From Bordetella sp. LUAb4 (lineage in GTDB: Bacteria > Pseudomonadota > Gammaproteobacteria > Burkholderiales > Burkholderiaceae_B), in NCBI RefSeq assembly GCF_021325795.1, contig NZ_JAHPZX010000001.1:558001-622000 (forward strand): a stretch of DNA of 64,000 nucleotides, written 5' to 3'. This document shows, piece after piece, positions 10,593 to 29,722 of this stretch (within the stretch, counting starts at the first letter, position 1; each line of letters starts with the position of its first letter). The position numbers and the translations under genes are program-made. A model generated the notes under the pieces. It did no database searches, was not told the DNA's origin, and saw only the letters and a list, made by a program, of their open reading frames with translations.

Positions 10593-10619
10593 GGATCTTC
10601 GTCATACAAAAGTTTAATC

Positions 10620-11513: not shown

Positions 11514-14500
11514 ATGCCTATCAAGCGCTTTCGCCTTAAAACCAGCGCCTACCTGCTGGCGACTTCTTCGATCATGCTTTGCGACGTGTCACACGCAGCG
11601 ACTGACCCCTGCACCCCGAAATTGAATACATCGGGTCCGCTCGGCGGTGCGAATGGCACGCCCAATTTTGCGAGCGGAGGATCAAGGGGAGTCAATACGG
11701 CGAACGAATGCGCCGTCTGGACCGTACAAAACGGCGGTTTGCTCAATGTGGCAACCAACGGCAGTATCGGCAATGCCTATATGGACACCGGGACCCTGTT
11801 GATAAGCGGGACGGTAACCGGCTTTGCCGAGGCTGGCGGATTCTATACACCCGACGATACGCGCGTACCCGCACGTCAAGGCGGGCAGGGCACCATCACC
11901 ATCAACGCGGGCGGACTGCTGGGCACGGCACTTATAGGCCCGGATTCATCCCTGACCGCGACAGGAGCCAATAGCAGCAACCGCGCTCAAATCGGCGCAA
12001 TCCAGACCGAAGGTACGGTCACGCTGGACAACGCACTGATCGATCCAGCACTGGCCACACACCAGGTACAAGCCAGTCTTTCGATGGAAGGCGGCACCGT
12101 CACCGTCAATAATTCGGAGATCAGGGGCGACGATGGCGTTCTTGGTGGACTGCTGATGGTGGCGCCGCGCGCGCAAACGAACACGACCTCGAAGATGGTA
12201 GTTACCAATAGCCAGGTAACCCATGTCAGCGATGCCCCCGCCATTACGGTCAGTGAGCTAGGATTTGGCTACCTTGACTACGACCTGACCCTGACCGATA
12301 CGACTGCCACGTCCTCGAGCTACGCGATATTCATTCGGCAACGTGCGCCCGCCGCGGGATATGCCGGCCATGGCGCCATAACGCTCACGGTCAGTGGCGG
12401 CACCTACACCGGCTCCAACGCCCTCGACGTCGAGGCCATGGGCACCCAACCGGTGCTGATCACGCTCAGTAATGGGACCCAACTGCTAGCGCCTACCCTG
12501 GGCAGCTTTGATGCCGGCACCGCCCTGCTGCTGGCGGGTGCGCCCACCGTGAACTCGACCGATAGCGTCATCCAAGGCGCCGACCACGGGCTGAAACTCA
12601 TATCAGATCCGCGCGCCCAGGGCGGCGCCACCGTCACGCTGGTAAATACACAAGTGTCAGGTGCCAATGGCTCCGCCATCGCCATCACCCGCGAGAATGG
12701 CGATGCCATCACGCATAACGCAGTGACCATCGGCGCCGGCACCACGCTCAGCGGCGGAGATGGCAATATCCTTACCATCGACAACGGCGCCCTGGCCGAT
12801 TTCCTCGTCGACTCGCGTGCGGGTGGAGGTAACGGGGCAGTCGATCTCTCCGGCAACGTCCAGGCCACGGGCAGCGGTACCAACCTGAACGTGGCGCTGC
12901 ACACCAATGCCAGCATCACCGGTAGCGTCAACGCTTCAGCGGGCAGCAGCGTCACGCTGACCGCTGACACGCTCTCATCACGGTTGAATGGCGCCGTTAC
13001 CGCGGATGCCGCAACGGCCAACGTGGACTTGAGCAACGGCGCCACGATAACCGGCGGCGTGGCATTGACGAGCCAGTCCATCGGTCGGCTCTCTCTTGCC
13101 GGCAGCGGCACAATGTTGTCCAACAGCAACAGTGCCGCGGTCACTGTCGACGATAGCAACGTAACTATTAACCTTTACGAAGGCGCCACGTTGGCGGGCC
13201 GGAATAATGTCCTGGTCGATGTCGCAAACGCCGGCCAGGCCGACGTGACGATGGACAATACCGTACAGAGCGGCGACATGACCCGGTCTGCCGACAGCAC
13301 GCTCAACGTTACGCTGCAAAACGCAACGCAATATACGGGCAATGTCACGGCCAACACCATGACCGTGAACAGCGGTGCGACATGGCTGCTGGCCAATCCG
13401 TACGCTTCGACCGTCGACACCCTGTCCATGAACAGTGGCATCGTCGACTTCAACTCGGCGACGGGGCCCTACAAGACGCTCACCGTAAACTCGCTGACCG
13501 GTGGCGGCGGCACATTCAACATGGGCGTGGATTTCAACCCCGGCGCCGGCAACGATCTGTTAGCGGTCAAAGGGCCAGTCAACAGCGCCAATCTGTTAGC
13601 CATCGGCGACGGCGATCAAGGCATTCATGATCCGCGCAACAACATCACTGTGGTGCAGACCGGCGGGGGCTCAGGTCAATTCGGGTTGGCGGGTACGGGC
13701 AAAGTGGACGCCGGGATCTATGTCTACTCCTTGAAGCCGGTCGGCAACGATTGGTTGCTGGTGCGCGATGGAACGACACCGCCTTCCAATCCCACGGATC
13801 CCACGAATCCTACCGATCCAACAAATCCCACGAACCCCACCGGCCCTGGCAATCCCAATAACGGCAACCCAACCTCTACGCCCGACCCCAAGGACTTGTC
13901 GCCGGCTGCAAAAACGGCGCTCAGCCTGTCCAGTTCCCTGCCCTATGTCTTTTACGGCGAAATGGGCACGCTGCGGCAACGCCAGGGCGACCTGCGCTTG
14001 AACAAAGCGGACAGCGGCGTGTGGGCGCGTAGCTACTACAACCGCACACAAATCGCCGAGTCCGCCGCGCCCGACTATGATCTGGACCAGTACGGCGGCG
14101 CCATTGGTGCCGACAAACGGCTGGTGCTGCAATCCGGTGACCTCTATGTCGGCGGCTTCGGCAGCTATAGCTACAACACGCTAGGCATCCAGGGCGGCTC
14201 CACGGGCCGTATCAACAGTTACGGCCTGGGCGGCTATGCCACTTGGGTGCGCACCGACGGTTGGTACCTCGATAGCGTGGTCAAGGCCAACAACTTCGAA
14301 AATGAAGCGCGCGTGATCGGCAGCAATGGCAAACCCGCCCGCGGCAAATACAGCAGACCTGGCATCGGGGCGTCGGTGGAGCTGGGCAAGCATATCGACA
14401 TCGGCAACAAAGGCTTCATCGAACCCTACGCCCAGCTGGCCGGCTTCCATGCGCGCAGTGCGAGTAAAGACCTCGACAGCGGTTTCCAGATTCGCAGCGG

Positions 14501-14807
14501 GACGACCAAATCCTTCCAGGCGCAGGTGGGCATGCTAGCCGGGAGCAATATCGAGGTCGGCAAAGGCTATGTGGTGCAGCCTTACATCAAGGGCGCTTTC
14601 ATCCGCGAATTCGTCAACGACAACAGCGTGACACTGAACGGCACGCGCATCCTCGACGACCTATCCGGTAACCGCATGCTGGTGGGCGCCGGCGTGGCCA
14701 CACAGGTCAAGCAAAACCTGCAGGTGCATCTCGACGTGGACTACACGACGGGCGGGCCGGTGAACAATTCGGTGAACCTGAACCTGGGTGTGCGTTACGC
14801 CTTCTGA
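11514..14807 (+). CDS. Autotransporter 1, pertactin-like (type Va secretion), subfamily A
   Basis: A 1097-residue autotransporter. From the ATG at 11514 it has a signal peptide (MPIKRFRLKTSAYLLATSSI, cut near residue 28), then a beta-helical passenger rich in Gly, Thr, Asn and short repeats (about 30-750) and a pertactin-like autochaperone stretch (TFNMGVDFNPGAGNDLL). An Asn/Thr-Pro repeat linker follows (about 757-787), then an alpha-helical segment and a C-terminal beta-barrel (about 830-1097) ending NLGVRYAF with the terminal Phe expected for outer-membrane assembly. The mature passenger has only two cysteines, Cys33 and Cys66. An RGD motif is at residues 204-206. Alternative starts at 11496 (ATG) and 11457 (GTG) only lengthen the leader. 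The barrel is the most divergent of the three subfamily A copies. Confidence 0.93.
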   Translation: MPIKRFRLKTSAYLLATSSIMLCDVSHAATDPCTPKLNTSGPLGGANGTPNFASGGSRGVNTANECAVWTVQNGGLLNVATNGSIGNAYMDTGTLLISGTVTGFAEAGGFYTPDDTRVPARQGGQGTITINAGGLLGTALIGPDSSLTATGANSSNRAQIGAIQTEGTVTLDNALIDPALATHQVQASLSMEGGTVTVNNSEIRGDDGVLGGLLMVAPRAQTNTTSKMVVTNSQVTHVSDAPAITVSELGFGYLDYDLTLTDTTATSSSYAIFIRQRAPAAGYAGHGAITLTVSGGTYTGSNALDVEAMGTQPVLITLSNGTQLLAPTLGSFDAGTALLLAGAPTVNSTDSVIQGADHGLKLISDPRAQGGATVTLVNTQVSGANGSAIAITRENGDAITHNAVTIGAGTTLSGGDGNILTIDNGALADFLVDSRAGGGNGAVDLSGNVQATGSGTNLNVALHTNASITGSVNASAGSSVTLTADTLSSRLNGAVTADAATANVDLSNGATITGGVALTSQSIGRLSLAGSGTMLSNSNSAAVTVDDSNVTINLYEGATLAGRNNVLVDVANAGQADVTMDNTVQSGDMTRSADSTLNVTLQNATQYTGNVTANTMTVNSGATWLLANPYASTVDTLSMNSGIVDFNSATGPYKTLTVNSLTGGGGTFNMGVDFNPGAGNDLLAVKGPVNSANLLAIGDGDQGIHDPRNNITVVQTGGGSGQFGLAGTGKVDAGIYVYSLKPVGNDWLLVRDGTTPPSNPTDPTNPTDPTNPTNPTGPGNPNNGNPTSTPDPKDLSPAAKTALSLSSSLPYVFYGEMGTLRQRQGDLRLNKADSGVWARSYYNRTQIAESAAPDYDLDQYGGAIGADKRLVLQSGDLYVGGFGSYSYNTLGIQGGSTGRINSYGLGGYATWVRTDGWYLDSVVKANNFENEARVIGSNGKPARGKYSRPGIGASVELGKHIDIGNKGFIEPYAQLAGFHARSASKDLDSGFQIRSGTTKSFQAQVGMLAGSNIEVGKGYVVQPYIKGAFIREFVNDNSVTLNGTRILDDLSGNRMLVGAGVATQVKQNLQVHLDVDYTTGGPVNNSVNLNLGVRYAF
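13788..13872 (+). repeat. 9-bp tandem repeats encoding Asn/Thr-Pro linker, autotransporter 1
   Basis: Degenerate nine-base units of the form AAT-CCC-ACG encode an NPT/NPTDPT tract joining passenger and barrel. Length changes in units of nine would stay in frame. Confidence 0.8.
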
Positions 14808-14823
14808 TCGCTTCCAGCGATCA
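14805..14823 (+). terminator. Hairpin at the stop codon of autotransporter 1
   Basis: A seven-base stem TGATCGC / GCGATCA with a five-base loop; the stop codon is part of the left arm. There is no T-run. A second GC-rich hairpin follows near 14840-14865. Possible Rho-independent function is weak. Confidence 0.4.
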
Positions 14824-14888
14824 ACATCCGGGCGATCCGCCGCGCGCTTATCCAGGCGCGCGACGGTCGCGAGCTATATCCAGGATCA

Positions 14889-14950
14889 GATACTTCCGAT
14901 ATGAGGGCGAGTACACAGCGATGAAAATCCGCGTTTCACCTCACATCCAC
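14889..14950 (+). repeat. Autotransporter upstream element, copy 1 (degenerate)
   Basis: The stretch with TTCCGATATGAG and ATGAAAATCC...GTTTCACCTCA aligns with the elements at 15138-15200 and 18664-18715 that precede autotransporters 2 and 3. Here it precedes only a short barrel remnant, as if the gene it once served was deleted. Confidence 0.55.
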
Positions 14951-14995
14951 GTCCTGGCCCACCAAGAGTCTTGAGCACGGTCAAGTCAATGGACG

Positions 14996-15118
14996 ACCGC
15001 GGTCATGCGCAAGTTCGTCAACGAGAACACCGTCGCACTCAACGGCACCCGCATCAAGAACGACATGTCGGGCAACCACAGGCTGGTCGGCACCGGCGTG
15101 CGCTACCTATTCTGGTAG
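14996..15118 (+). pseudogene. Remnant of a deleted sixth autotransporter (barrel C-terminus)
   Basis: Forty codons read TAVMRKFVNENTVALNGTRI, then KNDMSGNHRLVGTGVRYLFW and a stop. This matches the last barrel strands of autotransporters 2 and 3 (NGTRIKNDMSGNH, LVGTGV), but an internal deletion joins GTGV directly to RYLF, removing about 30 residues, and the ancestral TGA has become TGG before a TAG. No start or passenger is present. With the degenerate upstream element at 14889 it marks a former gene between autotransporters 1 and 2. The KNDM sequence places it with copies 2 and 3, not copy 1 (which has LDDL). Confidence 0.85.
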
Positions 15119-15137
15119 CCGCCAGGCAGGTCAGATT

Positions 15138-15200
15138 TTTCCGATATGTCCTAGGGTAAATACCAATGAGAATTCGGTTTTCACCTACCGATCACCGTCT
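15138..15200 (+). promoter_or_regulatory. Autotransporter upstream element, copy 2
   Basis: Contains TTTCCGATATG, AGGGTAAATACC and ATGAGAATTCGGTTTTCACC, close to the element before autotransporter 3. The GGTAAA/TTCACC ends form an imperfect dyad. It lies 80-140 bases before the start of autotransporter 2, so it probably carries the promoter or an operator. Role inferred from position and conservation. Confidence 0.5.
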
Positions 15201-15279
15201 CACCCGCCGACAATTAAAATACGACCCGGTCATTTGACGACCAGTCGTAGCGGCGCATGGGGCCGTGTCCAATCTCCCC

Positions 15280-18200
15280 ATGCCTATGACATCCTTCCGT
15301 CTAAAAGCCACCGCCTGCCTGCTTGGCACCTCGTCCCTGTTGCTCTGTGGCACGTCTTACGCGGCGACAGATCCCTGCACTGGCGCGCCTTTAGACCGAC
15401 AGGCGCAGATGAACGGCTCGACGACCACTTTCGCGAACGGCACACCAAAGACCGTGCCGGGTCCTACCAACTGTGCAGTCTGGTCTGTCACCAATGGCGG
15501 TTCGCTGGCCATCCAATCCGGTGGCGGCATCGGCAATGCTTTCATGGACATAGGAACCTTGAGCGTGCAGGACGGCGGAGTCGTCACGGGTTTCGCGGAA
15601 GCGGGGGGCTACTACCGTCCGTCAGACAGCACAGTCGATGGTCCCAGCGCGCAAGGGGTAATTGGCACAATCAACATCTATGGGGGAGGCCAGCTCGGAA
15701 CAGCGCTAATCGGACCGCAGTCGACCCTGAATTCGCTAGGTACCGATGACAATAATCGTGCTCGTGTTGGCAGCATAGAAACCGATGGAACAGTCACATT
15801 GAGCCATACGTTGGTGGACCCCAACCTTGCCGTTTATACAGCTGGCGCCGCCCTGGCCATCGACGGCGGACAAGTCACCATCAACGACTCGGAAATCAGA
15901 GGCGGCAACGGCGCTGGCAACGCGATCCGAATAATGGGACAACGCACCGAAGCGAACACTACCGCTACGGTGAACATCACGAATAGCAAGATTGACCAGG
16001 TCCCGGATGCGGACGCGATCGCGCTACTCGACCGGGGCGGTTACCTGGATTACAACCTGACCCTTACGAATACAGACGTCACATCCGCCCCGAGCAACGC
16101 GCTTTACATTGGACAAACCGCCCCGCCTGTCACGAATGACGGCCATGGCGCAATAAATGTCTCCATCAGCGGCGGCACCTACACGGGTGGCAATGCGGGA
16201 ATCGCGGCGGACGTGTGGGGCACTAAACCGGTCGATATTACGCTTACGAATGGCGTACATGTGCTCGCTCCCAACACCGGCGCAGGCGATATCGGCAATG
16301 CCATGCTGCTCACGGGCACCGCGAACGTGACGGCCACCGACAGCGTCCTGGAAGGTGCGAGCCATGGCTTGAAAATCGGCTCCGCTCGCAATGCCCTGGG
16401 CGGCCCGACCGTGGCGCTGGCGGACACACAAGTCACCGGCACCAACGGGTCCGCTATCTACATCACCCGCGGCAACCAGGATGCCGTCACGCATTCCACC
16501 ATCACCATCGGCGCCGGTACGACGCTCAGCGGCGGCGACGGCAATATTCTTACCACCGACAACGGTGCCCTCGCCGACTTTACCGTCGACGGTAACGCGG
16601 GCACGCGCAATGGCGCAGTCAATCTCGTCGGCAACATCGCGGCCAGCGGCGCCGGCACCGGTCTGAACGTTCAATTGAAGACGAATGCCACCATCAATGG
16701 CAACATCGTCGCATCGGCGGGTAGCGGCGTCACTTTGGTGGGGGATACGGCGTCCTCCCATTTGAATGGGGCAGTAACGGCGGCCGCCTCGACGGCCAAT
16801 GTGAACCTGAGCAACGGCGCCAAGGTCACCGGCGGCGTTGCCCTGAGCGACCGATCGACCGGGCAGATCGCGCTTACCGGAAACGGTTCGGCGCTGAGCA
16901 ATGGCAATGGTGCCGCGATCAGCGTCAATGACAGCACCGCAACGATCGCGCTGAACAGTGGCGCAACGCTGGCAGGCAAGGACAATCTGCTGGTCGACGT
17001 CAGGAATGCCGGTCAGGCGGACGTCACGCTGGACAACACGGTGCAGACCGGCGACATGATGCGTGCGGCCGACAGCACCTTGAACGTGAAGTTGCAAAAC
17101 AACACGCAGTACACCGGCAACGTCAAAGCCAACAGCATGACGGTGAGCAGCGGCTCCTCGTGGCTGATGGACAATCCGCAAGCCACGGATATCGGCGGCT
17201 TGACGCTCAATACCGGCCTGGTGGATTTCAATGCCGGCAACGGTCCCTTCAAGACGCTCAAGACCTCGAGCCTGGACGGGTCGGGCGGCCGCTTCAATAT
17301 GGGCGTGGACTTCAACCCCGGTGCCGGCAATGACCTGCTGCAGGTCGCCGGCAAGGTGGACAACGACAACCGCCTGCACGTCGACGCCAAGGACCAGAGC
17401 GTGGCGGATCCCCGCAATCACATCACCCTGGTGCAAACAGGCGGCGGTAATGGCCAGTTCGGATTGGTGGAAGGTGAAAAAGTCGACGCCGGCATCTACG
17501 TCTACAACTTGCAGCGCACGGGTGACGATTGGGAATTGGTGCAGAGCGGGACACGCCCTGACAATCCCAAGAATCCGAACCATCCGGACGATCCGGATCA
17601 CCCTGATGATCCCAATCACCCCAACAATCCCGACAACCCCGACAATCCCAACAACCCGGATAACCCCGGCAATCCGGACAAGAACCCGCCCAAGAACATT
17701 CCCGACGCCCAGCACCTGTCGCCCGCGGCCAAGACGGCACTCAACGTCGCCAGCGCTCTGCCCTTCGAGTTCTATGGCGAAATGGACACCCTGCGCAAAC
17801 GCCAGGGCGACCTGCGCCTGAACAAGACCGACAACGGCGCATGGGTGCGCAGCTTCAGCAACTTCAACGAAATCCGCGAAGCGGCCGCGCCCGGCTACAG
17901 CCTGAATCAATACGGCGGCGCCTTCGGTGCGGACAAGCGCTTTGAATTGTCTTCCGGCGATATGTACGTCGGTGGCTTCGGCTCCTATAGCTACAACACC
18001 GTGGGCGTGGATGGCGGTTCGTCGGGACGCACCAACAGCTACGGCCTGGGTGGCTACGCCACCTGGTTGCGCAGCGACGGCTGGTATGTGGACAGCATCC
18101 TCAAGGCCAACAGCTTCGAGAACGATTTGCGCGTGGTCGGCAGCAACGGCACGCCCGCTCATGGCCACTACAACACACCGGGCTACGGCGGGTCGGTGGA

Positions 18201-18627
18201 AGTGGGCAAGCACATCAACGTGGGCAAGAAGAGCTTCGTCGAACCTTATGGCGAGCTGCAAGGCTTCGCCGCGCACAACGCCAACGAGAAACTGGACAGC
18301 GGCTTCCGCATCCACAACGGCGCAACCAAATCCACGCAAGGCGAGATCGGCGTGCTGGGCGGCACCAACTTCGAATTGGGCAAGGGCTACGAAGTACAGC
18401 CTTATCTCAAGACCGCGGTCGTGCGCGAGTTCGTCGACGACAACAGCGTGACGCTCAACGGCACCCGCATCAAGAACGACATGTCGGGCAACCACATGCT
18501 GGTCGGCACCGGCGTGGTCGTGCAGTTGAAGCAGGACCTGCAAGCGCACGTCGATGTGGACTACACCGCCGGCGGCCCCATCAAGCACACCACCGACGTC
18601 AATATCGGCGTGCGCTACGTGTTCTGA
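15280..18627 (+). CDS. Autotransporter 2, pertactin-like, subfamily A
   Basis: A 1115-residue autotransporter, paralogue of its neighbours. Signal peptide at residues 1-28 (MPMTSFRLKATACLLGTSSL...), beta-helix passenger about 30-750, Asn/Asp/His-Pro repeat linker about 760-805, and barrel about 853-1115 ending NIGVRYVF. The mature passenger has two cysteines, Cys33 and Cys65. From about residue 565 onward (GKDNLLVDVRNAGQADVTL) it is nearly identical to autotransporter 3, at DNA level too, while the N-terminal passenger is clearly different. An upstream GTG at 15265 and a downstream ATG at 15286 are alternative starts; 15280 best matches the MPIK/MPMT start of the paralogues. The leader shares GCGCATGGGGCCGTGTC with autotransporter 3. 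Confidence 0.93.
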   Translation: MPMTSFRLKATACLLGTSSLLLCGTSYAATDPCTGAPLDRQAQMNGSTTTFANGTPKTVPGPTNCAVWSVTNGGSLAIQSGGGIGNAFMDIGTLSVQDGGVVTGFAEAGGYYRPSDSTVDGPSAQGVIGTINIYGGGQLGTALIGPQSTLNSLGTDDNNRARVGSIETDGTVTLSHTLVDPNLAVYTAGAALAIDGGQVTINDSEIRGGNGAGNAIRIMGQRTEANTTATVNITNSKIDQVPDADAIALLDRGGYLDYNLTLTNTDVTSAPSNALYIGQTAPPVTNDGHGAINVSISGGTYTGGNAGIAADVWGTKPVDITLTNGVHVLAPNTGAGDIGNAMLLTGTANVTATDSVLEGASHGLKIGSARNALGGPTVALADTQVTGTNGSAIYITRGNQDAVTHSTITIGAGTTLSGGDGNILTTDNGALADFTVDGNAGTRNGAVNLVGNIAASGAGTGLNVQLKTNATINGNIVASAGSGVTLVGDTASSHLNGAVTAAASTANVNLSNGAKVTGGVALSDRSTGQIALTGNGSALSNGNGAAISVNDSTATIALNSGATLAGKDNLLVDVRNAGQADVTLDNTVQTGDMMRAADSTLNVKLQNNTQYTGNVKANSMTVSSGSSWLMDNPQATDIGGLTLNTGLVDFNAGNGPFKTLKTSSLDGSGGRFNMGVDFNPGAGNDLLQVAGKVDNDNRLHVDAKDQSVADPRNHITLVQTGGGNGQFGLVEGEKVDAGIYVYNLQRTGDDWELVQSGTRPDNPKNPNHPDDPDHPDDPNHPNNPDNPDNPNNPDNPGNPDKNPPKNIPDAQHLSPAAKTALNVASALPFEFYGEMDTLRKRQGDLRLNKTDNGAWVRSFSNFNEIREAAAPGYSLNQYGGAFGADKRFELSSGDMYVGGFGSYSYNTVGVDGGSSGRTNSYGLGGYATWLRSDGWYVDSILKANSFENDLRVVGSNGTPAHGHYNTPGYGGSVEVGKHINVGKKSFVEPYGELQGFAAHNANEKLDSGFRIHNGATKSTQGEIGVLGGTNFELGKGYEVQPYLKTAVVREFVDDNSVTLNGTRIKNDMSGNHMLVGTGVVVQLKQDLQAHVDVDYTAGGPIKHTTDVNIGVRYVF
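17557..17692 (+). repeat. 9-bp tandem repeats encoding Asn-Pro-Asp linker, autotransporter 2
   Basis: Nine-base units such as AAT-CCC-GAC and CAC-CCC-AAC encode repeated NPD, HPD and NPN triplets. The tract is shorter than the matching one in autotransporter 3 although the flanking DNA is nearly identical, so unit number has changed. Confidence 0.8.
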
Positions 18628-18663
18628 GAGCCGTCAGATCAAGTTGCGAGGGCGAGTCAGAAA

Positions 18664-18715
18664 TTTCCGATGGGTATCAGGGTAAATACCGATGAGAATT
18701 CGGTCTTTACCTAAC
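18664..18715 (+). promoter_or_regulatory. Autotransporter upstream element, copy 3, with hairpin/operator dyad
   Basis: Contains TTTCCGATGGG, then a dyad with arms GGTAAA-TA-CCGA (18681-18692) and TCGG-TC-TTTACC (18700-18711), ten matched pairs with one internal 2-base mismatch. It lies about 95 bases before the start of autotransporter 3 and is conserved before autotransporter 2. It could be an operator or a transcript hairpin; no regulator is identified. Confidence 0.5.
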
Positions 18716-18805
18716 CCGCACCCTCGCCCATCGTAAAGAGTAGGCGCGAAGCAGTCATTCACCGACTGCTCGCGCTGGCGCATGGGGCCGTGTCACTCCC
18801 CCCTT

Positions 18806-21800
18806 ATGCCTATCAAATCCTTTCGCCTCAAAGCCACCGTCCTCCTGTTGGGAACCTCTTCTCTGGTGCTATGTGCCGCCGCTCACGCAGCGGCCGATAC
18901 CTGCTCGCCGCGTCTGAACACCGAGAAAAAAATGGACGAGCACGACAATCTTGTTTCGAACACCAACGGCTTGGTGACGATGAACAAGAGTTGTGAAAGC
19001 TGGGAGGCCAACGCAAATTCCACCATCACCGTTCTCGACAACGGCGGCCAGATCGGCAATGTGCAATTGACGGGAAATGCCAGCCTGCTGGTCAAAGGCG
19101 CCGCCACCCCCGCCGATCAGGGGGGCGTAGTCGCGGGATTCGTCGAGGCCGGCGGAACCTATGGGTCCCTTAGCGGGGGGACGACCGGGCCTAAGGGCGG
19201 CCAGGGAACCATAGGCGTCGAATCGGGAGGGCAGATCGGCTACGCGCTCATCGGCGCCGACTCGGCGTTGAATACCGTGCAGACCAGCGATCAACAAGCC
19301 AGGATCGGCGCAATCAGGACCGAAGGCACCGTCAGGTTGGACAATGCCGAGCTGGATTACGCCTTTGCGCCCCAATATCAAAACGACCCTCAAACCACTG
19401 CTGTCGTCGACCAGCGAGGGGGCACCGTCACCATCACCAACTCGTCGATCTCCGGCGATAACAACAGCAGGTTGTTGGGCGTCGAAATGGCTGTAACGGC
19501 CGCTGAGCCTAAACCAATCGCGACGCTGAACCTCACCAACACCACTATCGATCACGTCGCCAACTCGGGAATATTCGTCAGCGAAGGTGCCGGACTCTCC
19601 GACTACAAGTTGAATCTCACCGGCGATACGGTCACTGCCGGCAACACCGGCGCCGCACTCGATATACATCAAGCAAGTTCCGGCCGATACGGCAATATCA
19701 CAACGCTGGTCAGCGGCGGCACGTACACCGGCCCGATCGGCGCGTCATTGGACGTGGATGGCGGCCATCCAGTCAACCTCAGTGTGCAAAACAACGCCAC
19801 GCTGCGTGGCGTCGCGGGACAGGTCACCGATAGCGGGACCGCCTTGTGGATCGGCGGCGAGGCTTATGTGAATATCACCGACAGCAACTTGATCGGCGAT
19901 ACCAACGGGATCAAGGTGACGTCCAATTCCAACGCAAATTCGGGTCCGACCATCACCTTGTCCAACTCAACGGTGACCGGCGGCAGCGACGCCGCCATAC
20001 ATCTCACCCACGAAGATGGCGACACCGATCAACGCTCCGGCATCCAGATCGGCGCGGGATCGACGCTGACCGGCGGTGACGGCAACATCCTCAAGATGGA
20101 CAAAGGCGCCGTGTCCTCGGTGTACGTTGACGGCCACGCTGGCGGCGACGCTAATAGCACCGTCAACCTGGCGGGCAATATTTCCGTGTCCGGTGCACGC
20201 ACCGACTTGTGGTTGACGCTGAGAAATCACGCCACCATCGCAGGCGGCCTGACTGTCGGCGATACGGCTACGACTATTGCCACGATCGACGGTGCGGCTT
20301 CCTCGCTTGCCAACAAAGATGGCGCCGCCGTTACGATAGACAGCGGCAAGGGCACGATAAATCTGACCAACGGCGGCACGCTGGCAGGCAAGGACAATCT
20401 GTTGGTCGATGTCAGGAATGGCGGCCAAGCGGATGTTACGCTGGACAACACCGTGCAGACCGGCGACATGATGCGTGGCGCCGACAGCAACTTGAACGTG
20501 AAGTTGCAAAACAACACGCAGTACACCGGCAACGTCAAAGCCAACAGCATGACGGTGAGCAGCGGATCCTCTTGGCTGCTGGACAATCCTCAAGCCACGG
20601 ATATCGGCGGCTTGACGCTCAATACCGGCTTGGTCGATTTCAATGCCGGCAACGGCCCCTTCAAGACGCTCAAGACCTCGAGCCTGGCTGGGTCGGGCGG
20701 CCGCTTCAATATGGGCGTGGACTTCAACCCCGGCGCAGGCAATGACCTACTGCAGGTCGCCGGCAAGGTAGAGAACGACAACCGGCTGCATGTTGACGCC
20801 AAGGACCAGAGCGTGGCGGATCCCCGCAATCACATCACCCTGGTGCAAACAGGCGGCGGCAATGGCCAGTTCGGATTGGTGGAAGGTGAAAAAGTCGACG
20901 CCGGCATCTACGTCTATGACTTGCAGCGCACGGGTGACAATTGGGAATTGGTGCAAAGCGGGACACTCCCTGACAACAACAATCCCAAGAATCCGAACCA
21001 CCCGGACGATCCGGATCACCCCGATGATCCTGACCACCCCAACAACCCCAATAACCCCGACAATCCCGACAACCCTGCTAATCCCAACAACCCTGCTAAT
21101 CCCAACAACCCTGATAATCCCAACAACCCGGATAACCCAGGCAATCCGGACAAGGACCCGCCCAAGGTCCCCGACGCCCAGCACCTGTCGCCCGCTGCCA
21201 AGACGGCACTCAACGTCGCCAGCGCCCTGCCCTTCGAGTTCTATGGCGAAATGGATACCCTGCGCAAACGCCAGGGCGACCTGCGCCTGAACAAGACCGA
21301 CAACGGCGCATGGGTGCGCAGCTTCAGCAACTTCAACGAGATCCGCGAAGCGGCCGCGCCCGGCTACAGCTTGAATCAATACGGCGGCGCTTTCGGTGCG
21401 GACAAGCGCTTTGAATTGTCTTCCGGCGATCTCTACGTCGGCGGCTTCGGCTCCTACAGCTACAACACCGTGGGCGTGGATGGCGGCTCGTCGGGACGTA
21501 CCAACAGCTATGGCCTGGGTGGCTACGCCACCTGGCTGCGCAGCGATGGCTGGTATGTGGACAGCATCCTCAAGGCCAACAGCTTCGAGAACGATCTGCG
21601 CGTGGTCGGCAGCAACGGCACGCCCGCTCATGGCCACTACAACACGCCCGGCTATGGCGGCTCGGTGGAAGTGGGCAAGCACATCAACGTGGGCAAGAAG
21701 AGCTTCGTCGAACCTTATGGTGAACTGCAAGGCTTCGCCGCGCACAACGCCAACGAGAAACTGGACAGCGGCTTCCGCATCCACAACGGCGCAACCAAAT

Positions 21801-22096: not shown

Positions 22097-22127
22097 ACGC
22101 CGCCTGACATCGCGTTATCCACCGCAT

Positions 22128-22154
22128 ATCGGCCGCCCTCATGAGGCGGCCGAT
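22128..22154 (+). terminator. Hairpin after autotransporter 3
   Basis: A ten-base perfect stem ATCGGCCGCC / GGCGGCCGAT with a seven-base loop, 32 bases after the stop. No T-run follows. It separates the subfamily A genes from the subfamily B genes. Confidence 0.6.
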
Positions 22155-22228
22155 CCTTGATCGCCTCGTGATCTTGCAATCGTCATGTTTTCAAAACGCC
22201 GCTTGGGACTTTTCCCATATTAACGGCT

Positions 22229-22245
22229 CTTTAGGAATCCTAAAG
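22229..22245. promoter_or_regulatory. 17-bp perfect palindrome upstream of autotransporter 4
   Basis: CTTTAGGAATCCTAAAG is a perfect 17-base palindrome around a central A, 85-101 bases before the autotransporter 4 start. Its TTTAGGA/TCCTAAA half-sites resemble, with differences, the TTTCCTA heptads bound by the Bordetella regulator BvgA. It is a good operator candidate; the regulator is unproven. Confidence 0.55.
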
Positions 22246-22329
22246 TGAGACCCATGCTTTTGCGGCCTCTCCAACAACGCCATCGTTGGTCACACCGCGT
22301 CCTCAATCCACATATAAAAGGCGCTAGAA

Positions 22330-25300
22330 ATGAAGCTCTTCAAGAGAACGAATATCTCGCTGTTGATCACCCTGTTGGGAACCGGTTTTGTCCTCGCGGC
22401 TCCTGTGGCCCACGCATCGACAGTCATGGAATGTCCTGGGGTGAACGATCAGCTTTCTCCTGATTCCCTGGACCCGACCAAGGTCGACAACGGCAAGACG
22501 ACCACCCAACTGAAGCCCACCAAGAACGTCAGCACTAACGACGAGTGCGCGACGTATATGGCGACCAACGGCACGGTCAACGTGCAGAATGGTGGCAGCA
22601 CGGGTAATGTCATCGTCCAGAACAGCGGCGTGGTGAATGTGCAAACCGGCGGCACCGTCAACGGCGTCATCACCGCCGGCAACTATATGGAAGCGAAGGA
22701 CGGCACGTCGAGTCAGTATGGCGGCGTCGGCACCGTCAGCCTGTCATCCGGCTCGACCACCGGTGGCGTCCTGATCGGCGACGGTTCGACCCTCATCGCG
22801 AACGGCGCCGACATCGGCTGGGTCAAATCCGCGGGGACCACCAACATCACCGGCGGCACGATCAACCCCAAGGGTTATGGCCTGGGCACGCCGGACCAGG
22901 AGTACGATGCCGCCGTCGAGATCAATGGCGGCAGCGCCACCTTGAGCAAGGTCACCATCAACGCTTCCGATAGCGACATGGTGCAAGCCGGCGTTGCGGG
23001 GATCAAGATCAACGGCGACAGCAATTTCGATGGCCCCGCCGCCAACCTCGACATCACCATCAACGATCACACCGTGGTCACGGCCATCGACCCGCTGAAC
23101 ATCACGCGCAACGCCAGCGCGCCAGACGGCGACTACACCATCAATATCGCGGATTCATCATTCACGGCCCTGCAGAACACCAACACGGTGAGCGGCGCGG
23201 GCATGCGGGTGGAGGTCGCCGGCGGCACGCACCCGGTCGCCATTACCACGTCGGGCAGCACCTTCACCGGTTCGACCGGCCTGGAGTTCTCCACCCAGGA
23301 CGCGGGCACCAGCCTGACCGACACAGGCAGCACCTTCAAGTCCGACAACACCATGACGACCGGCACCCCGACCGCCGCGGGCGTGGGCATCTTCGCCAGC
23401 GGCAACGGCAGCGTGGCGCTGAATAAATCGACGGTCATAGGCCTGGAAGATGGCATCACGCTGGACACGCAAGCCACCGGCGACGGCACCACGCTGACCC
23501 TGGCCAATGGCACGAATGTCAGCGCCGGCAGCGGCAGCGCCCTGCACATCGTCAACCGCCAAAACAATGCCAACGCCGTCGCGCATGTCTCGATTGAATC
23601 GGGATCGACGCTGGCTGCCGATCAAAGCGGCACCATCATCCAGGCCGACGGCGGCGCCAAGGCGCAAGTCAAGGCCGATAACGTCGCCTTGACCGGCAAC
23701 ATCGCGGCCACCGGCAAGGACACGAAGCTCGACGTCTATGCGCAGAACCAGGCGTCCATCACCGGTGCCTTCAACGCCACCACCGGCGCCAACCTGGGTG
23801 TAGGCGCCACCAATGCGAGCCTGACGGGCGACCTTGGCGCCGACGGCGCGGGCACGCAGGCAACCCTCCAACTCGATCAAAACGGCGTGTTCACCGGCAA
23901 GGCCCAGGCCATCAACGGCGCCACGTTGTATGTCAACGGCACGGCAAGCGGCGCCCAGTTGCATGGCGCGATCAGCGCCGATGCCAGCACCGCCAACGTG
24001 CAGCTGCAAAACGGCGCCCAGGCGGACGGCGGCGTGGCCCTGAGCAACGGAGCCACCGGTACGGTGACCGTCAGCGGCGCGGGTTCGCTGCTGTCGCGTG
24101 CCGACGGCGCCGCGGTAGACGTGGACAAGGGCACTGCCACCATCAACGTGCTCGATGGCGGCCACCTCCAAGGCCAGGACGGCACGCTCGTCAACGTCAG
24201 CCACGGCAGCGCCAAGGTGCTGCTGTCCAATACCGTGCAGGCCGGCAATATGACGGCGACGGATGGCACCTTGGATCTGACGCTGGCAGGCAGTGCACAA
24301 CTCGACGGCAATGTGTCCGAGAAGAATGGCAGCGTGGTCCTCGCCGACAATGCGGTACTCAACGGCAATGTGGTCGGCCCCAACGTGACCGTGGGCGGCG
24401 CCGCCACCCTCAACGGCAATCTGGATGCCGACTCGCTGACCATGGCGGACAGCGGCACCTGGAAGCTGGGCAATGCCGCTTCGCAATCAATCGACACGCT
24501 GGCCATGAACGGCGGTAACGTCGATTTCAATTCCGGCAACGGTAATTTCAAGACGCTGAGTGCGAGTTCGCTGAGTGGGTCCGGTGGCACCTTGTCGATG
24601 AATGTGGACTTCAATCCGGGCGGCGGCAACGACCAATTGCAAGTCAGTACGGTCGACGGCACCCATGGCCTGCATGTCACCTCGGTCAATCAGGGCGTGG
24701 AGAATCCGCGTAACGACATCACCCTGGTTCAGAGCAACGGCGGCGATGGCAGTTTCAACCTGGTCGGCGACGGCAAGACCGATGCCGGTATCTACGTGTA
24801 CGACGTGAAGCAGGACGGCAATCGATGGGAGCTGGTGCAATCGGGAACGCTGCCTCCGACCGACCCCACGGATCCGACCAATCCCACGAACCCGGATAAC
24901 GGCAATCCGGCGAATCCCAACGGCCCGACCAATAATCCCATTCCCAAGCCCAAGGATCTGTCGCCCGCCGCCAAGACGGCATTGAGCGTGGCCTCGTCCC
25001 TGCCCTACGCCTTCTACGGTGAACTCGATACCTTGCGCCAGCGCGAAGGCGACCTGCGCATGAACAAGGCCGGCAGCGGTTTGTGGGTGCGCAGCTTCGC
25101 CAGCACCAACAAGATGGCGCAGTCGGCGGCACCCGCCTACGACCTGGACCAGTACGGCGGCGCCTTCGGTGCGGATAAACGCTTCCTGCTGTCCTCCGGT
25201 GGCGATATCTATGTCGGTGGTTTCGGCAGCTATAGCTACAACACCTCCGATATCGATGGCGGGTCCTCCGGCCGCACCAATAGTGCCGGCACTGGCGCCT

Positions 25301-25872
25301 ATGTCACCTGGATGTCCCAGGGCGGCTGGTATGCCGATGGCACCATCAAGGCCAACAGCTTCGGCAATGAATTGCGTGTTGTGGGCAGCGATGGCAACCG
25401 TACCCGCGGCAAGTACGACAATTCGGGCTTTGGTGGTTCGATCGAAGTGGGCAAGCACTTCAACCTGCCCAACAAGGGCTACATCGAACCTTATTCGCAG
25501 GTCGCCGCCTTCCAGGGCAGCAGCGTCAACAAGACCCTGGATAACGGCTTCCGCATCCATGACGATCCCACCCGCTCCGTGCGTGGCCAGTTGGGTTTCC
25601 AGGCCGGCACCACCTTCGAGGCCGGCAAGGGTTATATGGTCCAGCCTTATGTGAAGGCCGCCGTGCTGCGCGAGTTCGTCAACAGCAACCACGTTGCGCT
25701 CAACGGCACCACCATTTCAGACAACCTGAACGGCAACCGTGCGTTGGTGGGGCTGGGCATGCAGGCGCAGTTGAAGCAGAGCCTGCAAGTCTACGCCGAC
25801 GTTGATTACACCAGCGGTGGACCGGTGGACCACAGCGTTTCCGGCGATGTCGGCGTGCGCTACGCCTTCTAA
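22330..25872 (+). CDS. Autotransporter 4, pertactin-like, subfamily B
   Basis: A 1180-residue autotransporter. Signal peptide MKLFKRTNISLLITLLGTGF..., cut near residue 29; beta-helix passenger about 30-840, with repeated GNV/GTL/NGG turns; a TLSMNVDFNPGGGNDQLQV autochaperone stretch; an Asp/Thr/Asn-Pro linker about 842-874; barrel about 917-1180 ending DVGVRYAF. Mature cysteines are only Cys35 and Cys73. The ATG follows an AAAAGG site ten bases upstream. The barrel half is nearly identical in DNA to that of autotransporter 5, while the passengers differ more. It is distinct in signal peptide, linker and barrel from subfamily A. Confidence 0.93.
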   Translation: MKLFKRTNISLLITLLGTGFVLAAPVAHASTVMECPGVNDQLSPDSLDPTKVDNGKTTTQLKPTKNVSTNDECATYMATNGTVNVQNGGSTGNVIVQNSGVVNVQTGGTVNGVITAGNYMEAKDGTSSQYGGVGTVSLSSGSTTGGVLIGDGSTLIANGADIGWVKSAGTTNITGGTINPKGYGLGTPDQEYDAAVEINGGSATLSKVTINASDSDMVQAGVAGIKINGDSNFDGPAANLDITINDHTVVTAIDPLNITRNASAPDGDYTINIADSSFTALQNTNTVSGAGMRVEVAGGTHPVAITTSGSTFTGSTGLEFSTQDAGTSLTDTGSTFKSDNTMTTGTPTAAGVGIFASGNGSVALNKSTVIGLEDGITLDTQATGDGTTLTLANGTNVSAGSGSALHIVNRQNNANAVAHVSIESGSTLAADQSGTIIQADGGAKAQVKADNVALTGNIAATGKDTKLDVYAQNQASITGAFNATTGANLGVGATNASLTGDLGADGAGTQATLQLDQNGVFTGKAQAINGATLYVNGTASGAQLHGAISADASTANVQLQNGAQADGGVALSNGATGTVTVSGAGSLLSRADGAAVDVDKGTATINVLDGGHLQGQDGTLVNVSHGSAKVLLSNTVQAGNMTATDGTLDLTLAGSAQLDGNVSEKNGSVVLADNAVLNGNVVGPNVTVGGAATLNGNLDADSLTMADSGTWKLGNAASQSIDTLAMNGGNVDFNSGNGNFKTLSASSLSGSGGTLSMNVDFNPGGGNDQLQVSTVDGTHGLHVTSVNQGVENPRNDITLVQSNGGDGSFNLVGDGKTDAGIYVYDVKQDGNRWELVQSGTLPPTDPTDPTNPTNPDNGNPANPNGPTNNPIPKPKDLSPAAKTALSVASSLPYAFYGELDTLRQREGDLRMNKAGSGLWVRSFASTNKMAQSAAPAYDLDQYGGAFGADKRFLLSSGGDIYVGGFGSYSYNTSDIDGGSSGRTNSAGTGAYVTWMSQGGWYADGTIKANSFGNELRVVGSDGNRTRGKYDNSGFGGSIEVGKHFNLPNKGYIEPYSQVAAFQGSSVNKTLDNGFRIHDDPTRSVRGQLGFQAGTTFEAGKGYMVQPYVKAAVLREFVNSNHVALNGTTISDNLNGNRALVGLGMQAQLKQSLQVYADVDYTSGGPVDHSVSGDVGVRYAF
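24853..24950 (+). repeat. Tandem repeats encoding Thr/Asp/Asn-Pro linker, autotransporter 4
   Basis: Nine-base units of the form ACG-AAC-CCG and GAT-CCG-ACC encode DPT/NPT triplets. The tract is visibly shorter than that of autotransporter 5. Confidence 0.75.
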
Positions 25873-25929
25873 GGCGACCGGTAGCGGCCTCGCGCCGCGG
25901 CCTTGTTTACCTCCCGCTCCTTCATCTTT

Positions 25930-26100
25930 TTCCATCCTTCTTCTCTCCTGAGGAGAGAAGAAGAGAAGAACGAAGAAGGGCCTTTATCTCCTTCGTCTCT
26001 TCGCGGTCTTCTTTTCTCTTGAAGAGAGAAGGGAAAGAGGGAGGATCTTTCTCCTTCCTCTCCTTTCTTCTCCCCTGAGGAGAAAAAAGGAGCAAAAAGG
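25930..26100. repeat. Purine/pyrimidine-rich region with three palindromes before autotransporter 5
   Basis: This leader consists mostly of CT/TC runs alternating with GA/AG runs. It holds a 13-base-arm perfect palindrome (CTTCTTCTCTCCT at 25937-25949 with AGGAGAGAAGAAG at 25951-25963), a smaller one (TCTCTT/AAGAGA near 26015-26027) and a third (TTCTCC/GGAGAA, about 26068-26084). Nothing else in the window has this composition. It lies just before the ribosome site of autotransporter 5. It may act in transcription, mRNA structure or slippage; the function is unknown. Confidence 0.7.
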
Positions 26101-26116
26101 AACGTCAGGAACAACC

Positions 26117-29100
26117 ATGTCGAACCGATTCAAACAGCGCGAACTCGCGCTCATGATTTCCTTGCTGGGCACAGGCCTGGCGTTCACACCGGGCGCGCAT
26201 GCCGCGACCGAATGCAGCGGCGGCCAGAACCAGTTCTCCGCCGACGCCCTGGATGCGTCGAAGGTGCCGGCAGGCCAGCAAGCGGGCTCGGGCAAGACGC
26301 TGAACGTAAGCGGCTCGCACGACTGCGACACCTACCTGTCCAACAAAGGCCAGTTGACGGTGCAAACGGGCGCGTCGACCGGAAACATCCTGACCCAGCA
26401 AGGCGGTAAGGTCGTCGTGCAAACCGATAGCTCGGTCAATGGCATCATCGCGGCCGGCGGCGGCATGCAGCGTCAGGCGGGACAGGCGTCAGCCACCTAC
26501 GGCACCACGGGTAACGTCACACTGCAAAGCCGCTCCCAGACGGCGGGCGTGCTGATCGGATCAGGTTCGACGCTGACCGCGAACGATGCCGACATTGGTT
26601 GGGTCAAAACCGCCGGCACCACCACGCTCACCGGAACGCACATCAGTCCCGCCGACTATGGCCTGGGCGACCCCGGGGTGCAATACCATGCCGGTCTGGA
26701 AATCAATGGCGGCACCACCACCATACAAGGCAACAGCGTCATCAATATGTTCAGCACGGTCGCCGTCGACCCGCACGCCGTGGGCATCGATGTGCATAGT
26801 GATAAGACTTACTCCGCCGGCAAGCCTATCGAGGTGCATGTCCTGGATACGTCCGTCAACTCGGGCACCGGCTTGAGCATCACTCGCGACAGCAGCGAAC
26901 CCGACGTTGCGTACAACGTCGAGCTGAAGAATTCGACCTTCCTGGCCGACAGCGCCTCTGGCGGCAACGCACCCACCGGGACCGGCGCCTACGTATCCGT
27001 GACCAGCGGAGCGAAAGCGGTCAACATCACTTCCGAAAACAACCACTTCGAGGGGTCGAGCGGCCTGCAGTTCATTTCGCAGGGCACGTCCACCACGTTC
27101 AAGGATACGGGCAGCACCTTTTCGGCCGACAACAGCCAGACCACGCAGAATCCCAACGGCGCCGGCGCCGGCATCTATGCGGCCGGCCAGGGTCAGATGA
27201 CGTTGAGCGGTTCAACCGTCAAGGGCCGTGGCGATGGCATCGAGATGGACACCCTGAGCAGTGGCCATGGCGGCAGCCTGGATCTGACCGACAACACGAC
27301 CGTCACCGCCAGCGGCGACGGCGCGGCTTTGCATTTCGTCAATCATGGCAAAAATATGCGAGGCGAAAATTCGGTCGTGATCGAGTCCGGCGCGACGCTG
27401 GATGCAAGCCATGGTAACGGCAACATCATCCAGGCCGACGCCGGTGTTGACGGTGAAGTTCAGGCCAAGGGCGTCACATTGACCGGCAATATCCAAGCCC
27501 ACGACAAGGGCACGTACCTGTTTGTCGGCGCGGCGGACCAGGCGGTCATCACCGGCACATTCAGCGCCTCTGGCGGTGCGAACTTGGGTCTCGATGCTGA
27601 CAACTCAACCTTCAACGGTGACCTTATTGCCGATGGAGCCGGCACCCTTACGCAGATCAATATGAGCAATGCTGCCGTGCTGAACGGGGGAGCCCACGCC
27701 ACGAATGGCGGGAAGGTCCAGGTCCAGGCCTTGGCAGAAGGCGTTATCCAGCACGGCGCGATAACCGCCGACGCCAGTACCGCAACCCTGCATTTGAGTG
27801 GCAGCGACCGGGTCGATGGCGGCATGATCCTGAGCAATGGCTCCGATGGTGCGGTGACCCTTGACCAAGGCTCACAGCTTTCGCGCGCCGACGGCGCCGC
27901 CTTGAGTGTCGACAACAGCACTGTCAGGTTGCAACTGATGAATGGCAGCCACCTGCAAGGCCAGGACGGTGCGCTTCTCAATGTCACCAACAATGGCAGC
28001 GCTCAGGTGTCCCTGGAAAAAACCGTGCAGGCCGGCAATATGACGGCCACCGACAGCACCTTGAATCTCACGCTCGAAGCCAACGCACAGCTCGACGGCG
28101 ACGTGTCCGCGACCAAGGGTAGTGTGGTCCTCACCAAGAATTCGGTGCTCAACGGCAATGTGATCGCCCCTACCGTGACCGTGGGCGACACCGCCACCTT
28201 GAACGGTAATCTGGACGCCGATGCATTGACCGTGGCCGACAGCGGCACCTGGAAACTAGGTAGCGCTGCCACGCAATCGCTGGGCACGCTGACCATGGAC
28301 GGCGGTACCATCGATTTCAATTCCGCCAACGGCAATTACAAGACGCTGAGCGCGAATTCGCTGAGCGGGTCCGGCGGTACCTTGGCGATGAACGTGGACT
28401 TCAACCCCGGCGGCAAGAATGACCAATTGCAGGTCACGACGGTCGACGGCACGCATGACTTGAAGGTGAATTCCGATCAGAGCGTGGCGCATCCCCGTAA
28501 TGACATCACCTTGGTGCAGACCGGAGGCGGTGGCAACGGCAGCTTCAACCTGGTGGGTGATGGCAAGACCGATGCCGGTATCTACGTCTATAACGTGGAG
28601 CAGGAAGGAAACCGCTGGGAGCTGGTGCAGACGGGGACGCTGCCGCCTGATCCCACGAACCCCACGGATCCTACGAATCCTACCAACCCCGACAACCCGA
28701 CGAATCCTACCAATCCGACCAATCCTACCAATCCCACGAATCCGGATAACGGCAATCCGGCCAATCCCAACGGCCCGACCAATAATCCCATTCCCAAGCC
28801 CAAGGACTTGTCGCCGGCCGCCAAGACGGCATTGAGCGTGGCCTCGTCCCTGCCCTACGCCTTCTACGGTGAACTCGATACCTTGCGCCAGCGCGAAGGC
28901 GACCTGCGCATGAACAAGGCCGGCAGCGGTTTGTGGGTGCGCAGCTTCGCCAGCACCAACAAGATGGCGCAGTCGGCGGCACCCGCCTACGACCTGGACC
29001 AGTACGGCGGCGCCTTCGGTGCGGATAAGCGCTTCCTGCTGTCCTCCGGCGGGGATATCTATGTCGGTGGTTTCGGCAGCTATAGCTACAACACCTCCGA

Positions 29101-29722
29101 TATCGATGGCGGGTCCAGCGGACGCACCAACAGTGCCGGCACTGGCGCCTATGTCACCTGGATGTCCCAGGGCGGCTGGTATGCCGATGGCACCATCAAG
29201 GCCAACAGCTTCGGCAATGAATTGCGTGTTGTGGGCAGCGATGGCAACCGTACCCGCGGCAAGTACGACAATTCGGGCTTCGGCGGTTCGATCGAAGTGG
29301 GCAAGCACTTCAATCTGCCCAACAACGGTTACGTCGAACCCTATTCGCAGGTCGCCGCCTTCCAGGGCACCAGCGCCAACAAGACCTTGGACAACGGCTT
29401 CCGCATTCACGATGCGCCCACCCGCTCCGTGCGTGGCCAACTGGGCTTCCAGGCCGGCACCACCTTCGAGGCTGGCAAGGGCTATATGGTCCAGCCTTAT
29501 GTGAAGGCGGCCGTGTTGCGCGAGTTCGTCAACACCAATCACGTAGCGCTCAATGGGACCACGATCTCGGACAACCTGAACGGCAACCGTGCGTTGGTGG
29601 GGCTGGGTATGCAGGCGCAGTTGAAGCAGAACCTGCAGGTCTATGCCGATGTTGACTACACCAGCGGTGGACCGGTGAATCACAGCGTTTCGGGCGACGT
29701 CGGCCTGCGTTACGCGTTCTAG
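26117..29722 (+). CDS. Autotransporter 5, pertactin-like, subfamily B
   Basis: A 1201-residue autotransporter, the longest of the five. Signal peptide MSNRFKQRELALMISLLGTG..., cut near residue 29; beta-helix passenger about 30-840; autochaperone stretch TLAMNVDFNPGGKNDQLQV; a long Thr/Asn-Pro linker about 842-895; barrel about 936-1201 ending DVGLRYAF. The only mature cysteines are Cys33 and Cys70. An RGD motif lies at residues 371-373 (KGRGDGIEM). The barrel half is nearly the same as autotransporter 4. GGAAC sequences before the ATG can serve as ribosome site. Its unusual purine/pyrimidine leader suggests separate regulation. Confidence 0.93.
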   Translation: MSNRFKQRELALMISLLGTGLAFTPGAHAATECSGGQNQFSADALDASKVPAGQQAGSGKTLNVSGSHDCDTYLSNKGQLTVQTGASTGNILTQQGGKVVVQTDSSVNGIIAAGGGMQRQAGQASATYGTTGNVTLQSRSQTAGVLIGSGSTLTANDADIGWVKTAGTTTLTGTHISPADYGLGDPGVQYHAGLEINGGTTTIQGNSVINMFSTVAVDPHAVGIDVHSDKTYSAGKPIEVHVLDTSVNSGTGLSITRDSSEPDVAYNVELKNSTFLADSASGGNAPTGTGAYVSVTSGAKAVNITSENNHFEGSSGLQFISQGTSTTFKDTGSTFSADNSQTTQNPNGAGAGIYAAGQGQMTLSGSTVKGRGDGIEMDTLSSGHGGSLDLTDNTTVTASGDGAALHFVNHGKNMRGENSVVIESGATLDASHGNGNIIQADAGVDGEVQAKGVTLTGNIQAHDKGTYLFVGAADQAVITGTFSASGGANLGLDADNSTFNGDLIADGAGTLTQINMSNAAVLNGGAHATNGGKVQVQALAEGVIQHGAITADASTATLHLSGSDRVDGGMILSNGSDGAVTLDQGSQLSRADGAALSVDNSTVRLQLMNGSHLQGQDGALLNVTNNGSAQVSLEKTVQAGNMTATDSTLNLTLEANAQLDGDVSATKGSVVLTKNSVLNGNVIAPTVTVGDTATLNGNLDADALTVADSGTWKLGSAATQSLGTLTMDGGTIDFNSANGNYKTLSANSLSGSGGTLAMNVDFNPGGKNDQLQVTTVDGTHDLKVNSDQSVAHPRNDITLVQTGGGGNGSFNLVGDGKTDAGIYVYNVEQEGNRWELVQTGTLPPDPTNPTDPTNPTNPDNPTNPTNPTNPTNPTNPDNGNPANPNGPTNNPIPKPKDLSPAAKTALSVASSLPYAFYGELDTLRQREGDLRMNKAGSGLWVRSFASTNKMAQSAAPAYDLDQYGGAFGADKRFLLSSGGDIYVGGFGSYSYNTSDIDGGSSGRTNSAGTGAYVTWMSQGGWYADGTIKANSFGNELRVVGSDGNRTRGKYDNSGFGGSIEVGKHFNLPNNGYVEPYSQVAAFQGTSANKTLDNGFRIHDAPTRSVRGQLGFQAGTTFEAGKGYMVQPYVKAAVLREFVNTNHVALNGTTISDNLNGNRALVGLGMQAQLKQNLQVYADVDYTSGGPVNHSVSGDVGLRYAF
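28645..28800 (+). repeat. 9-bp tandem repeats encoding Thr-Asn-Pro linker, autotransporter 5
   Basis: About ten nine-base units (ACC-AAT-CCG, ACG-AAT-CCT and similar) encode TNP repeats. Compared with autotransporter 4, whose flanks are nearly the same, this tract has extra units, consistent with slipped-strand or recombinational expansion. Confidence 0.82.

Follow-up and report, generated by a model that had tools for sequence, protein, structure and literature searches.

The 64,000-nucleotide stretch of the Bordetella sp. LUAb4 genome analyzed here (contig NZ_JAHPZX010000001.1, positions 558,001 to 622,000; hereafter, the window) carries between positions 11514 and 29722 a tandem array of five intact open reading frames (ORFs), AT1 to AT5, all on the forward strand, arranged head to tail, and each 1,097–1,201 codons long (AT1 being counted from the ATG at 11514). 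The spacers that separate them measure, in order, 457, 154, 233, and 244 nt, and none holds an intact gene. The Pfam barrel PF03797 is found in all five products (E 2e-45 to 2e-43) over the whole profile (positions 1–255 of 255), and every one of them ends in a phenylalanine. The stem domain PF03212 (“Pertactin”) is found in four of the five, the one without a match at E 0.01 being AT4. A profile of 12 array proteins (five from the window, three from Achromobacter sp. HZ34, and four from Achromobacter aloeverae), compared to solved chains only, matched best BrkA (E 4e-37) and then Vag8 (6e-31). These features point to type Va autotransporters of the pertactin/BrkA kind; putative N-terminal signal peptides were assessed solely by visual inspection of the translations. 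The preliminary description of this DNA, which had reported five complete head-to-tail autotransporter genes with no intact gene between them, is borne out, and so is the pertactin-like membership that it had proposed. The passengers are homologous and do not belong to unrelated families. The features of the locus are compiled in Table 1.

Table 1. Coordinates (window numbering) of the array genes, their shared modules, spacers, and upstream neighbors.
Feature	Position	Strand	Description
AT1	11514..14807	+	autotransporter; passenger type a, barrel lineage A; PF03797, PF03212
AT2	15265..18627	+	autotransporter; passenger type b, barrel lineage B; PF03797, PF03212
AT3	18782..22096	+	autotransporter; passenger nearest A. 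aloeverae genes 1–3 (49–50%), barrel lineage B; PF03797, PF03212
AT4	22330..25872	+	autotransporter; barrel lineage C; PF03797
AT5	26117..29722	+	autotransporter; barrel lineage C; PF03797, PF03212
AT2 stem, linker, barrel	16993..18627	+	half common to AT3, from protein identity
AT3 stem, linker, barrel	20405..22096	+	half common to AT2; best joint at residues 532–533, about 20375–20380
HZ34 gene 1–2 spacer match	14879..14990	+	82% over 112 nt
Spacer motif TCAGATTTTTCCGATATG	14886..14903	+	2 mismatches
Scar	14995..15112	+	remnant of the 3' end of a B-type barrel; 106 nt, overlapped by a 19-nt piece of the gene end
HZ34 gene 2–3 spacer match	15130..15256	+	83% over 127 nt
Spacer motif TCAGATTTTTCCGATATG	15131..15148	+	exact
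AT4–AT5 spacer	25873..26116	.	nested purine/pyrimidine inverted repeats; fold z-score -3.3
o8254	8254..8694	+	146 aa; fragment-like; matches o8987 residues 243–335 at 35%
o8987	8987..10555	+	522 aa companion; without family match
o10587	10587..11399	+	270 aa companion; without family match

The passengers and the barrels of these proteins tell different histories. Fifteen array-type genes were aligned, and each was divided at two points, ahead of the stem and ahead of the barrel: AT1–AT5 (named Win1–Win5 in the comparisons), HZ1–HZ4 from Achromobacter sp. HZ34 (genome G005; NZ_NJIX01000003.1), Alo1–Alo4 from A. aloeverae (G001; NZ_PYAL01000010.1), and the single genes G2a and G4a of genomes G002 and G004. 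The window passengers form the sets 1-2-3 (40–56% identical) and 4-5 (47%), with 24–30% identity between sets. As for the barrels, those of copies 2 and 3 are 100% identical to the nearest percent and those of 4 and 5 97%, while copy 1 shares 66% identity with 2/3 and 62% with 4/5. The division into two subfamilies (copies 1–3 and 4–5) given in the preliminary description thus stands for the passengers, but not for the barrels, which fall into three classes (1; 2 and 3; 4 and 5). Between AT2 and AT3, protein identity is 40% upstream, 91% in the stem and linker, and 100% (rounded) in the barrel.

Across species, three barrel lineages are recognized: A (Win1, HZ1, and Alo1), B (Win2, Win3, HZ2, HZ3, Alo2, and Alo3), and C (Win4, Win5, HZ4, and Alo4), with the barrels of G2a and G4a outside all of them. 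The lineage tracks position in the three multi-copy genomes, A being found at the start of the array, B at its center, and C at its end. Passengers do not follow these lineages. HZ2 bears a passenger of the Win1/HZ1 type (74 and 77% identity) on a B barrel; Alo1, Alo2, and Alo3 carry a single passenger type (83–92%) on A, B, and B barrels, respectively; and Win3, whose passenger is nearest to that Alo type, has a barrel 100% identical (rounded) to that of Win2. At three positions, the passengers of orthologues from different species are of one type (79–81% identity).

This disagreement is also seen at silent sites. From passenger to barrel, the synonymous divergence (dS) falls from 1.42 to 0.12 in Win2/Win3, from 0.96 to 0.23 in Win4/Win5, and from 0.89 to 0.13 in HZ2/HZ3, while it rises from 0.48 to 0.77 in HZ1/HZ2 and from 0.58 to 0.91 in Win1/HZ2. 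The A. aloeverae pairs go from 0.10 to 0.56 (Alo1/Alo2), from 0.13 to 0.01 (Alo2/Alo3), and from 0.15 to 0.54 (Alo1/Alo3). Same-position orthologues, used as controls, give 0.59 and 0.52 (Win1/HZ1), 0.55 and 0.53 (Win2/HZ3), and 0.37 and 0.55 (Win4/HZ4), their stem-linker part being more variable (0.45, 0.90, and 0.71). Four-fold sites agree with these steps. Because the change in silent divergence from one half to the other goes in both directions, and far exceeds what is observed in the same-position orthologues, recombination between paralogues is indicated.

In agreement with this, the passenger and barrel trees conflict, and in an approximately unbiased (AU) test 10 of 11 groupings were rejected (nine with p <= 2.5e-5, and Alo2+Alo3 on the passenger with 0.019); the remaining grouping, Win4+HZ4 on the barrel, was one that the best tree already contained. 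Maximum chi-square placed the joints at residues 449–453 and 515 in HZ2 (two parent pairs), 532–533 in Win3, 595–607 in Alo1, 564 in Win4, and 411–412 in Win5, in most cases a short way upstream of the conserved stem; their place differs among cases. The joint chi-square ranges from 117 to 480 in eight mosaic triples, versus 23.4, 6.5, 16.8, and 68.7 in four control triples.

The number of copies differs as well. Among six genomes of the genus, one per species, open frames in array-type loci amount to five in the window, four in HZ34, four in A. aloeverae, one each in G002 and G004, and zero in G003, which has no array-type match at E 1e-60. At this threshold, 5 of 268 family genomes, each of them from this genus, gave matches; the search scored no more than two candidates in each genome, and absences are not proofs. 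A scan of the genome contigs for related loci found two, both of which were used. In G004, the genes that flank the array in the window (one for an acyl-CoA dehydrogenase and the gene at 29771–30703) adjoin, so the insertion site is empty (L087, about 4181–4227) and the single copy of this genome is at another location. In G003, the same neighbors are separated by an unrelated autotransporter and a further long frame (L086, about 4200–16800). A plasmid search yielded distant, mostly barrel-only matches, none of them covering 80% of the query.

A further copy was once present in the window lineage. The spacer between AT1 and AT2 is composite, with two HZ34-type spacer stretches enclosing a scrap of barrel sequence of ~118 nt in total, whose 106 nt are 91.5% identical to AT2 and AT3 and 81% to HZ2. 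Because the flanking DNA matches both spacers around gene 2 of Achromobacter sp. HZ34, this scrap is the scar of a gene that formerly occupied the place of HZ2 and is now almost wholly lost, an orthology that is based on the spacers and not on the scrap. The sixth gene in decay of the preliminary description is therefore not a gene, but only this remnant of a barrel 3' end. On the other hand, the proposal of an expanding array gains support, extended to loss: copy number varies among the six genomes (5, 4, 4, 1, 1, and 0), the arrangement is not single-copy in all of them, and one gene has gone from the window lineage.

Tandem autotransporters are not unique to the array locus in this genome, since a second tandem triple is found at C10:89.7-96.9 kb (L073). 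In the comparison of this triple with its HZ34 counterpart (L074), positional partners are kept in both halves (barrels 81, 90, and 85%; passengers 58, 39, and 71%), and passengers of differing positions are only 14–22% identical. Barrel homogenization does occur at a second locus, the HZ34 pair L075 (G005:C13:126000-140000), where the barrels are 100% identical to the nearest percent and the passengers are divergent; four-fold sites are equal at 86–98% in four 100-column blocks (columns 1200–1600) and at 46–69% in the passengers (columns 0–600). Re-pairing of passengers with other barrel lineages has been seen in the main array only.

Regarding selection, the ratio of nonsynonymous to synonymous divergence (dN/dS) in orthologues is 0.22–0.35 for passengers and 0.06–0.09 for barrels, and orthologous passengers are thus under purifying selection. 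The younger passenger copies of A. aloeverae show values of 0.41–0.71, which fits relaxed constraint after copying. Positive selection on the passengers was considered and rejected: the proportion of nonsynonymous differences (pN) exceeded that of synonymous ones (pS) in 1153, 2472, 405, 0, and 0 of 5000 bootstraps (five pairs, columns 150–350), none of them significant.

Taken at the level of sequence, the copy-number differences, the deletion scar, the re-paired modules, and the homogenized barrels make it likely that the locus is a growing and shrinking tandem array of autotransporters of the pertactin/BrkA/Vag8 kind whose paralogues swap halves by recombination. The process would be gene conversion and unequal crossing-over between neighbors, with the conserved 3' half providing the homology, and it would also account for the variation in copy number and for the scar left by the lost gene. 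As expected from family membership, each protein would cross the inner membrane via its N-terminal signal and insert its C-terminal barrel, displaying the passenger. The effect would be to present varied surfaces on an unchanging export module, with adhesion or another kind of contact at surfaces as the most likely function. The surface-antigen repertoire suggested in the preliminary description stays conjectural, given the purifying selection on orthologous passengers, the lack of a significant excess of pN over pS in the columns tested, and the absence of switching repeats in 7970–29770. The exchange of passengers between barrels goes beyond what the preliminary description had claimed.

Several observations weigh against this explanation. 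The groups for the AU test were picked after the trees had been seen, and their p-values are optimistic. Three of the four control triples also gave low permutation counts (0, 5, and 0 of 2000; the fourth gave 480), which means that rate variation makes small steps too, and hence it is the size of the step, and not the permutation count, that bears the argument. The AT4/AT5 case is mixed: their barrels are ~100% identical in the first half and 90–97% in the second, and the best barrel tree joins Win4 with HZ4 (support 66/94) despite the lower dS of Win4/Win5, so that conversion of these barrels may be partial. Moreover, the other tandem triple, L073, shows no exchange, and with one genome per species no exchange has been caught within a species.

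An alternative source of the mosaics would be outside exchange, in which autotransporter genes acquired from different strains or species entered the array by recombination within its conserved barrel half. The passenger of AT3, only 49–50% identical to its nearest relatives (those of A. aloeverae), has no donor in hand, and the companion genes beside the array have an atypical guanine-plus-cytosine (GC) content of 51–54%, both of which would suit an import. However, barrels are closer within a genome (dS 0.01–0.23) than those of the same lineage across species (0.52–0.55 for the three pairs of window and HZ34 genes), and passengers within A. aloeverae are near duplicates (dS 0.10–0.15), which makes this origin rather unlikely. 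It is still more doubtful that the array constitutes a dedicated passenger-diversification island, in which barrels bound to their positions serve as fixed export slots, ongoing recombination copies passengers from slot to slot, and genus-restricted proteins of the o8987 type are functional partners of the displayed passengers, even if in the genomes searched these proteins occur only alongside this autotransporter type.

Active antigenic variation, with passengers switched between expressed and silent positions during growth, could produce re-paired modules and joints that differ among cases, as found here. Nevertheless, it is very improbable, given that all five genes are intact and have their own spacers, which does not correspond to a silent-cassette layout, and that orthologues at three positions have kept their passenger across species, which indicates that exchange is slow. 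Repeats suited to switching were not found in 7970–29770 either; a script detected in this region no homopolymer of at least 8 nt and no 2–5-nt unit repeated at least five times, and slipped-strand on/off switching was discarded on these grounds. A history without recombination, in which tandem duplicates evolved slowly in the barrel and fast in the passenger, would agree with the stronger constraint on barrels, but it can be given almost no credit, because differing selection on the two protein halves does not predict silent steps that run in opposite directions in different pairs, and the trees conflict. Finally, an assembly artefact that joined near-identical barrels to the wrong passengers is scarcely credible even though the barrels of AT2 and AT3 hardly differ and the assemblies G000, G001, and G005 are drafts (20, 10, and 20 contigs), because passenger- and barrel-type counts differ within HZ34 (two type-a passengers and one A barrel) and within A. 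aloeverae (one passenger type on A and B barrels), so that no re-pairing of modules restores one passenger type per barrel lineage, and the spacers match between species.

Some parts of the proposed recombining array have precedents. The Bordetella group 9 autotransporters (Prn, BrkA, Vag8, and BapC) act in adhesion and immune evasion, according to excerpts of PMC9289746. The array proteins resemble them in the barrel profile, which is best matched to BrkA and Vag8, in the Pertactin stem domain of four of the five, and in a proline-rich linker; they differ in forming a tandem array with exchanged modules. An RGD motif appears in only 3 of the 15 array-type proteins (AT1, AT5, and HZ34 gene 2). 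In Bartonella, two clusters of five to seven autotransporter genes are described in the extracts of PMC2697382 as having grown and shrunk by tandem duplication and deletion, an expansion and contraction similar to the one proposed here; the tree in those extracts is from the barrel alone, leaving passenger-barrel re-pairing outside its scope. Domain shuffling of the Lav/AutB autotransporters of Haemophilus and Neisseria is claimed by the title of Davis et al. 2001 (cited in PMC5118866), although single genes moved there between genera, whereas paralogues are involved within the array. Both the growth and shrinkage of clusters (Bartonella) and domain shuffling (Lav) were thus already known, as far as those partial sources indicate.

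The Pmp genes of Chlamydia are partly clustered, and their passenger type differs from that of the array. According to PMC5025070, they constitute a paralogous family of autotransporter-type surface proteins, which is their likeness to the array. Judging by titles, no published work on the locus was found within open-licence PubMed Central (PMC) text.

The barrel is often the only basis on which autotransporters are classified. Since barrel and passenger trees disagree here, such a scheme assigns the exposed part wrongly. The array looks like a site of recombination among surface proteins, and it offers a natural set, with positional orthologues as controls, in which to measure the re-pairing of exposed domains with export domains. 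The locus also points to an unnamed family of companion proteins.

These companions are encoded upstream of AT1. The products o8254, o8987, and o10587 have no match in Pfam at E 0.01 or in NCBIfam at 0.1; ten members of the family gave in Pfam a best, non-significant match to Big_1 (E 0.043, two of the ten); and o8987 matched nothing significant among solved structures (best E 0.064). No signal peptide is visible by eye. The family is fast-diverging. Companion-type frames adjoin autotransporter genes in all five genomes with this autotransporter type (L026, L057, L058, L060, L061, and L065), one of them lying inside the array in A. aloeverae, whereas a search that scored up to five candidates per genome detected none in the remaining 263 of the 268 family genomes. 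Among 399 genomes sampled across the order (up to three candidates each), only G000 and G004 had matches; with so few candidates scored, these absences are not proofs. The GC content is 51% in 8001–10000 and 54% in 10001–12000, compared with 59–62% in the array and 60–69% in 1–8000 and 30001–40000.

Genome-wide, 23 barrels exceed the Pfam cut-off, five of which are in the array. Membership in the BafA family was ruled out for the two proteins scanned, as AT1 and AT4 scored 218 and 190 bits against an NCBIfam cut-off of 700. In front of the barrel, an NPx linker is encoded by 9-nt repeats (13788–13840, 17609–17681, 20991–21139, and 28650–28744) whose number varies among copies and species, always in frame.

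With respect to the spacers, scans for promoter and terminator consensus sequences in 8000–27000 gave numbers near chance (5 found versus 7.6 expected, and 23 versus 20.2), and no second full copy of the AT4–AT5 spacer repeat set was found in the genome. The motif TCAGATTTTTCCGATATG, with two sites in the window where none is expected by chance, is common to the spacers of HZ34 and A. aloeverae, and a shorter form lies upstream of 5 of 15 autotransporter genes and of none of three companion genes; it could possibly be a regulator site. One exact and five one-mismatch sites were counted genome-wide, versus three for the reversed control. A one-mismatch site at G000:C4:6340-6352 is situated tens of bases ahead of the expected frame start of another autotransporter.

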